A stretch of 64,000 nucleotides of DNA from positions 4,242,501 to 4,306,500 of the forward strand of contig NZ_CP026538.1 of NCBI RefSeq assembly GCF_004135975.1, written 5' to 3'. The DNA comes from Solidesulfovibrio carbinolicus. Its GTDB lineage: Bacteria; Desulfobacterota; Desulfovibrionia; Desulfovibrionales; Desulfovibrionaceae. A program made the translations under genes and the position numbers. A model generated the notes under the pieces. The model worked only from the letters and a program-made list of their open reading frames with translations. It made no database searches and had not been told where the DNA came from. Below, in pieces: positions 40,194 through 41,407 of the stretch. Positions within the stretch are counted from its first letter, which is position 1. Every line of letters begins with the position of its first letter.

Positions 40194-40218
40194 GCTGGGA
40201 GAAGAGGAAGATGCCTTG

Positions 40219-40224
40219 TATGTT
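40219..40224 (+). promoter_or_regulatory. Left-end -10 half of a circle-junction promoter
   Basis: TATGTT at 40219-40224 in the left end would lie exactly 17 bp from TTGACT at 41352-41357 in the right end when the two ends join through one CT core. The joined circle would thus gain a near-consensus sigma70 promoter reading into the leader RNA and transposase. In the inserted state the -10 lacks this -35. Such junction promoters are known for IS110-family elements. Confidence 0.7.
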
Positions 40225-40230
40225 TCCCCA

Positions 40231-40385
40231 TCGAGGCTAACTTGACGGGGTCAAGGGGACGATAGGTCGAAATTGCCTTGAGTTTTAAGCTCGAGCCGGA
40301 GCCATGATCGTCGTCCCCTTCTTCCATGAAGCCCGAACCGTTGCTTGGGCTAAAAGCCCGTATCACAAGGCTGGGTACTGGAGGA
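40231..40385 (+). ncRNA. Predicted bridge RNA of the IS110-family element
   Basis: A 5' stem-loop (CTTGAC 40241-40246 with GTCAAG 40250-40255) precedes two guide loops. The target loop is closed by GGGGACGA (40255-40262) with TCGTCCCC (40311-40318). Inside it TGCCT (40274-40278) equals the left target strand and GCCGGAG (40295-40301) is complementary to CTCCGGC on the right of the insertion site. The donor loop is closed by AGCC/GGCT (40330-40333, 40369-40372). It holds ACCGTTGCT (40337-40345), identical to the right end 41364-41372, then a GGGCT/AGCCC hairpin, then ACAAG (40365-40369), complementary to CTTGT at the left end. All four guides include the CT core. This is the known bridge RNA plan of IS621; exact RNA ends are inferred. 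Confidence 0.85.
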
Positions 40386-40391
40386 TTTTAC

Positions 40392-41336
40392 ATGGCTGCT
40401 GACTGTTTCATCGGAATTGATGTCTCTAAGGAAACGCTTGATGTCCACACACTTCCCGACGGAAATGACTTTCAATTCGTCAACGACCCCGATGGTATAA
40501 AAGCCATCTGCAGAAAATTTTCCAAGTTTCGTCCGACTCTTGTTATCATCGAGGCGACTGGTGGCCTTCAGATTCCTGTTGCCACAGCGTTGAGTCTCAA
40601 GAAATTCCCCGTTGTAGTCATCAACCCCCGCCAGGCTCGGGATTTTGCGCGAGCTAAAGGGCGGCTGGCTAAAACGGACAAGATTGACGCTGAGATTCTT
40701 GCTCTCTTTGGCAAACAGATGGAGCCTGAAGTACGCCCTTTGAAGGACGAGGAAGCACAAGAAATGAGTTCGCTAATGTCCAGGCGCAACCAACTCATTC
40801 GAATGCTCGTCATGGAAAAGAACCGTTTTACTCGTGCTTATGGTTCTGTAAGAACAGATATCGAGAAGAATATTAACTGGCTTGAGGAGCGATTGTCTGA
40901 GATCGACACGCATCTTGGCAAAGTAGTACGAGCGAGTCCGATTTGGCGTGAGCGAGACAATTTGCTCCGGAGCGTTCCAGGTGTCGGAGATGTCCTGTCA
41001 AGATCGCTTCTTTCCAATTTACCTGAGCTTGGAACATTGAATCGTCGGGAGATCGCTGCTCTTGTTGGGGTTGCCCCTTTGAATTGCGACAGCGGAAAGC
41101 GTCGAGGAAAGCGTCGTGTATGGGGCGGTCGAAGTGATGTTCGATCTGTATTATATATGGCTGTCTTGTTAGCTAAAAAATACAATCCCGTCATACGTGA
41201 TTTTTACAATCGTCTCAAGGAAGCCGGTAAACCACATAAGGTCGCCGCAGTTGCTTCGATGCGAAAGTTGATAACGATTTTAAATGCGATGGTGCGATCC
41301 GGGCAACCGTGGGGACAGTGCGCGCACACGGCGTAG
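40392..41336 (+). CDS. IS110-family transposase (DEDD recombinase)
   Basis: A 314-residue protein of usual length for IS110/IS621 types. The RuvC-like N-terminal domain holds D10 (FIGIDVSKE), E54 (VIIEATGG) and D95/D98 ([10 protein letters not shown]). The C-terminal Tnp domain has [19 protein letters not shown] and [16 protein letters not shown], with Ser233 the likely nucleophile, then [17 protein letters not shown] lies 6 nt before ATG 40392, directly after the bridge RNA segment. It should cut and rejoin donor and target DNA guided by the RNA. No frameshift or stop is seen. Confidence 0.95.
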
Positions 41337-41351
41337 ACCCCTGATTATCGG

Positions 41352-41357
41352 TTGACT
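41352..41357 (+). promoter_or_regulatory. Right-end -35 half of a circle-junction promoter
   Basis: TTGACT lies 13 bp inside the right core CT. In the linear insertion it faces out into the hairpin repeat, where no -10 box follows at the right distance. Joined to the left end it would pair with TATGTT across a 17-bp spacer. Confidence 0.7.
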
Positions 41358-41372
41358 CCGAACACCGTTGCT

Positions 41373-41407
41373 CCGGCGGCCGGGGGCCTGAGGCCCCCGG
41401 ACCCCCC
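41373..41407 (+). repeat. Hairpin repeat R4, 3' part, split by the IS element
   Basis: CCGGCGGCC, the GGGGGCC/GGCCCCC hairpin and GGACCCCCC remain on this side. The missing first five bases TGCCT lie at 40212-40216, 19 bp after the stop of the GT2 gene and after a GAAGAGGAAGA purine tract. The IS thus separates the GT2 gene from its natural 3' element. The 58 bp from 41373 also precede the next radical SAM gene. Confidence 0.85.

Follow-up and report, generated by a model that had tools for sequence, protein, structure and literature searches.

An IS110-group element of Solidesulfovibrio carbinolicus with a predicted bridge RNA matching an intergenic hairpin repeat

Overview

The 64-kb stretch of the Solidesulfovibrio carbinolicus genome analysed here (hereafter the window) contains an intact element of 1156 bp which, judging from its sequence, is a member of the IS110 group of the IS110 family. 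It is very probably a transposon that is guided by its own RNA into a hairpin repeat of its host, and that is active or was so until recently. This reading is built on features established here, namely the ends of the element, its copies, an uninterrupted target site, a conserved RNA structure, the agreement between guides and targets and the layout of a promoter (Table 1). A second and more tentative proposal, that the DNA coding for one of the guides may serve the recombinase as a cryptic end, arises from a pair of derivatives found in one related genome.

Table 1. Features of the element, its predicted RNA and its target repeat (positions within the window)
Feature	Position	Strand	Remarks
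Complete IS110-group element	40217..41372	+	left end TGTATG..., right end ...ACCGTTGCT; from the restored site and the uninterrupted orthologous site
Recombinase gene, 314 aa	40392..41336	+	PF01548 and PF02371
Bridge RNA coding stretch (predicted)	40255..40377	+	target loop, then donor loop; ends are those of the alignment cut
Target-loop stem, 5' arm GGGGACGA	40255..40262	+	pairs with 40311-40318
Target-loop stem, 3' arm TCGTCCCC	40311..40318	+	pairs with 40255-40262
Left target guide AAATTGCCT	40270..40278	+	core CT 40277-40278; 7/9 match; permutation test
Right target guide GCCGGAG	40295..40301	+	complement of CTCCGGC, 7/7; permutation test
Left donor guide ACCGTTGCT	40337..40345	+	CT at 40344-40345; identical to 41364-41372, by inspection
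Right donor guide ACAAG	40365..40369	+	complement of CTTGT (core CT and element left end), by inspection
Left donor half (element right end)	41364..41372	+	core CT 41371-41372; conserved in copies
Donor sequence of the element			ACCGTTGCTTGT
-35 box TTGACT of the circle promoter (predicted)	41352..41357	+	17-bp spacer to TATGTT over the circle junction
-10 box TATGTT of the circle promoter (predicted)	40219..40224	+	from sequence layout
Target repeat, left part	40196..40216	+	GA-rich tract and TGCCT
Target repeat, right part	41373..41423	+	CCGGCGGCC, hairpin and second short hairpin
Uninterrupted copy of the target repeat	12150..12189	-	40/40 identity

Ends of the element and the restored site

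An earlier note on this DNA had held that both ends are exact to the base, and two sites bear this out. Joining 40216 to 41373 gives a run of 40 bases that is identical at 40/40 positions to an uninterrupted copy of the repeat on the minus strand of the same window. In the sister genome G005, the repeat lies uninterrupted upstream of the orthologous gene, which was taken by eye, not by search, for a radical-SAM gene and whose DNA is 98% identical. Between AAGAGGAAGATGCCT and the next start codon, a stretch that includes the repeat, the sister sequence differs from the restored site at 1 base; farther upstream, an ungapped comparison gives 20 mismatches in the last 108 bases. Comparison with the uninterrupted site places the insertion at the shared core dinucleotide, with no target bases lost. 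The loci of 12 relatives were taken for this comparison and the gene start was located in four of them: the repeat is present and uninterrupted at the orthologous gene in G005 and G012, and no such repeat is found at the gene start in the bases compared in G010 and G001. The same ends are common to the close copies in five genomes.

The recombinase

The recombinase scores well above the cut-offs of both of its domains (PF01548, the DEDD domain, 88.6 bits with a cut-off of 29; PF02371, 55.4 bits with a cut-off of 21.3). Its residues D10, E54, D96, D99 and S234-G235 align with D11, E60, D102, D105 and S241-G242 of IS621, among which D11, E60, D102, D105 and S241 are named in the available text of PMC11208158. 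The aligned DEDD residues and the catalytic serine are invariant in seven proteins of the genus. In local alignments of residues 6-312 with proteins of solved structure, E-values of 1.9e-37 and 8.9e-35 were obtained for ISCro4 and IS621, respectively.

Copies in the genus

Close copies, with at least 73% protein identity, number 17 and are found in five of the 14 genomes of the genus (3, 10, 1, 1 and 2 copies), and two more genomes of the genus have distant matches only. The left junction is preceded by GCCT in all 17 close copies, and at the right end CCGGCG comes next in 16 of them, the remaining one (L061) having TCCGGCG. These counts include L054/L174, the left end of which is of a truncated type (see below), and L049/L091, where only five flanking bases precede the left junction before the contig ends. 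The earlier note had named copies inserted at unrelated sequences as the observation to look for against its reading, and 0 of the 17 close copies lie outside the repeat. Its expectation that insertions split the repeat at CT also holds, but TGCCT need not be complete: two insertions, L056/L014 and L013, lie at GGCCT, without the first T.

The ten copies of G005 encode proteins with 96-97% identity to that of the window, one of them (L071) with an internal TAG. Because these ten copies are nearly identical to each other, their sequences suggest a recent spread of the element in this genome. Such a spread bears on the possibility that the window element is an old remnant, that is, a fixed and inactive insertion in which the pairing described below is a fossil. 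The single copy of this element subtype in the window genome, where the two other copies are 75% identical in DNA, would fit a remnant, but the open reading frame, the catalytic residues and the guides are all intact, a close relative retains the uninterrupted site, and the near-identical copies of G005 code for nearly the same protein; we thus regard a remnant as improbable.

Beside these copies, 13 matches in the genus member G004 (L051, L055, L058 and others) belong to a distant IS110-type recombinase with 29-33% identity. Two subtypes, L046 and L053, with 97% and 80% protein identity to the window recombinase, appear from their flanks to occupy the same repeat locus in two species.

The target repeat

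The 13-mer core of the repeat, GCCTCCGGCGGCC, occurs 245 times in the genome of the element, and a reversed control occurs 0 times. We read the first 30 repeat copies along the main contig (L015-L044). In these copies, the core precedes a hairpin, usually after a GA-rich tract, and the arms of the hairpin vary together (AAAGGGGC/GCCCCTTT, GGGAGGGG/CCCCTCCC and GGGGGCC/GGCCCCC). In 16 of the 30, a frame of 120 codons or more on the same strand ends 3-35 bp before GCCT, a figure that comes from a crude gene finder, some frames being hidden by those that extend across the repeat. The occupied copies and the uninterrupted site agree with the proposal of the earlier note that the element targets an intergenic hairpin repeat; a terminator, to which the note likened the repeat, is not indicated by the 30 copies, in which no T-run was seen by eye directly after the hairpin. 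Among 19 occupied sites, 17 have TGCCT as the left half, and among 30 sampled repeats 20 do, in counts made by eye that leave out L049/L091 with its five flanking bases; a preference for this half is not established by these numbers (Fisher p 0.095). As regards REP sequences, which are high-copy intergenic palindromes accompanied by a tyrosine transposase (RAYT), the same genome has three Y1_Tnp (PF01797) matches (L227-L229), one of which has an internal stop and one of which covers 51 of the 121 positions.

The leader as a bridge RNA

The non-coding leader is, on the evidence of its sequence, a bridge RNA, which would be transcribed as in IS621. Along its length, the target stem is followed by the left target guide, a hairpin, the right target guide and a stem; then comes the donor loop, in which a hairpin lies between the left and the right donor guide; the IS621 bridge RNA has the same order of loops and guides according to the available text of PMC11208160. 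All four guides recognized in the earlier note are present as described, except that a left target guide of nine bases is a better reading than one of five, AAATTGCCT matching the target AAGATGCCT at 7/9 bases. The predicted bridge RNA folds at -45.9 kcal/mol, compared with a mean of -36.3 for shuffled sequences (z -2.74; 0/200 shuffles as stable), and the whole leader of 175 nt gives a z of -3.05, with 2/200 shuffles as stable.

The structure is shared with relatives. From 294 relatives, 80 were kept and 29 of those 80 were read, the Labrys elements (L127-L131) being inspected at their ends only. A total of 22 leaders were cut by hand (20 from the 80 relatives, that of the window and that of L053), and 18 of them were aligned, three belonging to the genus and the other fifteen to relatives with 45-56% identity; the alignment was left unedited, and L106, L123, L124 and L125 were dropped as awkward to align. 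Across the 18 leaders there are 26 consensus pairs, 17 of which show compensatory changes. A covariance model gave 17 matches in five of the 14 genus genomes, one of them being the mini-element described below, and matches in 16/16 genomes searched individually; these genomes include sequences from which the model was built, and 150 candidates per genome were scored. Among short matches considered as solo RNAs, we rejected L214, which ends at a contig end, L216, which looks like chance, and L224, where the stretch contains a run of N. A scan of the 64-kb window with Rfam at curated thresholds gave no match to an RNA family and is uninformative.

Agreement between guides and targets in distant relatives

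Guides and targets were compared by permutation in the window element and in relatives outside the genus, without the same-genus copies L053 and L091, the five bases that flank the core to the left and to the right being compared with the guide at set alignment columns. Sixteen rows were left, among which L093 and L096 have no left target and L109 no right target; the left-end motifs, the leader starts and the right end of L096 were set by hand, and three neighbouring column positions were allowed for the left guide in own and permuted pairs alike. Left targets agree with their own guides at 55 of 70 positions (n=14; permuted mean 40.1) and right targets at 66 of 75 (n=15; permuted mean 24.7), and on either side 0 of 100,000 permutations reach the observed agreement. 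Since the 18 leaders align with compensatory changes and no permutation reaches this agreement, the pattern goes beyond chance. Covarying structure in the leaders and guide-target agreement in distant relatives together uphold the reading of the leader as a bridge RNA, which had originally been made from the window sequence.

A Planctomycete relative, Planctomycetes bacterium SV_7m_r, illustrates a change of target. It has 10 copies with readable ends among 11 listed, nine of which lie after ACCCT, and eight of the ten continue with CCCGCnnGCGGGAG, a palindrome; the guides of this element are ACCCT and GCGGGAG. By inspection, the relatives L092 and L107 also lie at the foot of palindromes.

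These data bear on whether the target is instead specified by the protein, the recombinase itself reading the repeat while the leader is an untranslated stretch whose matches are coincidental or ancestral. The genus alone cannot separate the two modes of targeting, because its close copies share both protein and target, and one relative, L126, has a well-formed bridge RNA but a target that agrees with the guides at only 2/5 and 1/5 positions; the ends of L126 may have been misread, or its insertion may be off-target. Across distant relatives, by contrast, a change of target goes along with a change at the guide positions of a structurally aligned RNA, a pattern that targeting by the protein alone would not predict. 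On account of this agreement across relatives we reject a choice of target by the protein only, which we consider most unlikely, and retain RNA-guided targeting.

Predicted circle-junction promoter and proposed mechanism

When the right and left ends are joined in 16 elements, three of which belong to the genus, 15 present, by layout, the arrangement TTGACN-17-TATNNT across the junction; the exception is L104, the junction of which has no -35 box. By analogy with IS621, the element would leave as a circle, and the joining of its right and left ends would form the promoter TTGACT-17-TATGTT, from which the leader would be transcribed as bridge RNA. The first loop of this RNA would pair with both halves of the repeat (TGC-CT-CCGGC) and the second with the circle junction (ACCGTTG-CT-TGT), and the DEDD/serine recombinase would swap strands at the shared CT. 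The element would thereby be inserted, with a single orientation, at the foot of the repeat hairpin, with all target bases kept. These steps, from the formation of the circle through transcription and the binding of the RNA to the exchange of strands, are here modelled on IS621, and expression of the RNA and its reprogrammability would be expected from the same precedent.

A mini-element, its remainder and a possible cryptic end

The metagenome bin G007 contains two partial elements that are reciprocal. One is a mini-element of 129 bp (L013/L169, G007:C155:19950-20078), which runs from TGTATG... to ACCGTTGCT of the left donor guide and is followed by the right half of the repeat. The other is a remainder of 1031 bp (L010/L054/L174, G007:C126), in which GCCT is joined directly to TGGGCG, followed by the gene and a normal right end. 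In both, the break lies at the CT within the DNA of the left donor guide, and their lengths add up to 1160 bp, the length of the full copy in G007. A relic of ~36 bases (L173, G000:C1:3500720-3500749) in the genome to which the window belongs has a second junction of GCCT with TGGGCG; it is a biased catch, obtained by searching for that junction. An unbiased DNA search of the genus, in which four candidates per genome were scored, gave, beside a match of 39 bases in another family (L008), three partial derivatives, of which L010 and L013 end at the donor-guide CT and L011 does not.

These junctions raise the possibility that the left-donor-guide DNA, as a copy of the donor half site, could be used by the recombinase as a cryptic end. 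Because the left donor half is by design repeated in the guide DNA, recombination between this DNA and the left junction would release a circle of 129 bp that has a correct donor junction and the complete target loop but lacks the recombinase gene, and would leave an element of 1031 bp without the target loop. The circle could then reinsert as a mini-element mobilised in trans. We put this forward tentatively, at somewhat less than an even chance, because the cases are few, the reciprocal pair comes from a metagenome bin, L011 does not fit and a mini-element elsewhere, L256 in an Enterobacteriaceae genome, came about without a guide.

Ordinary deletion at microhomology, without any action of the recombinase on guide DNA, could also have produced the mini-element and the remainder, and we give it an even chance. 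L013/L169 lies at a direct repeat of 9 bp (ACCGTTGCT) and L174 at a match of 4 bp (CTTG), L256 is not cut at a guide and shares, by eye, ~4 bp at its join, and L011, one of the three partial copies from the unbiased search, is not broken at a guide. On the other hand, the element contains CTTG 13 times, and a match of 7 bp (TGCCTTG) that lies closer, at the left target guide, was passed over in the remainder, whose junction is at the donor-guide CT; moreover, a second locus, in a different genome (L173), has the same junction, and the lengths of the two products together equal exactly that of the full element.

A search for mini-elements gave 13 matches in 10 of 392 genomes, four of which were read (L255, L256, L257 and L260). 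L256 (G256:C110) has both IS621-type ends fused and is without the bridge RNA core and the gene, L257 is a match of 28 bases in which no element was seen, and L260 is cut by a contig end. The mini-elements found elsewhere tell against a general claim of cryptic ends.

In Escherichia coli, the REP 3' of znuB carries an IS621-type solo left end of 72 bp (L230, L235), which stops exactly at the CT position of the left target guide; MG1655 is uninterrupted at this place. The same 1-81 match is seen in at least 14 among the 60 matches listed, and one locus (L235) was read. The guide of this solo end starts with T, the corresponding base being G in L231, L234, L146, L148 and L149. Because this T for G in the guide makes a crossover with an empty target possible, which would explain the solo end equally well, it was not counted as a second case of breakage at guide DNA.

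If the cryptic end is real, it would represent a built-in self-targeting flaw, analogous to CRISPR self-targeting, that breeds non-autonomous derivatives, and would explain the origin of some small IS110 derivatives. It would also provide a design rule for bridge-RNA editing tools, concerning self-recombination at guide-coding DNA. In the literature searched, which covered few subscription papers, neither the repeat nor a cryptic-end role of guide DNA is mentioned.

Significance and comparison with known systems

RNA-guided elements of this kind are known since 2024 (available texts of PMC11208160 and PMC11187229). The present one offers an unusually complete natural demonstration of bridge-RNA targeting, together with the one unexpected lead discussed above. 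It amounts to a natural test, with 245 landing-site cores in the host, ten near-identical insertions in a sister genome, uninterrupted sites, and relatives in which guides and targets changed together. It also adds cases to a branch aiming at intergenic hairpin repeats, in which the Planctomycete relative uses a different palindrome.

Of the known systems nearest to it, IS621 of Escherichia coli, as far as the available texts of PMC11208160 and PMC11208158 describe it, shares with the window element a recombinase with DEDD and serine residues, a leader bridge RNA with the target loop before the donor loop, a CT core, a circle-junction promoter and an intergenic palindromic repeat as target. 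The two differ in that the recombinase of the window element is only distantly related by local alignment and belongs to another host group, and that its repeat (TGCCTCCGGC...) and its right target guide of 7 bases are its own. ISCro4, compared by protein alone, likewise has an IS110-type recombinase and is the closest solved structure by sequence (E 1.9e-37). The seekRNA of IS110 and IS1111 elements (Siddiquee et al. 2024, PMC11187229, available text) is a different name for RNA of this kind. In the IS110 type described there, the non-coding region lies upstream of the gene, as in the window element, whereas in IS1111 it is usually downstream and accompanied by subterminal inverted repeats; the predicted RNA of the window element, lying upstream, thus corresponds to the IS110 arrangement.
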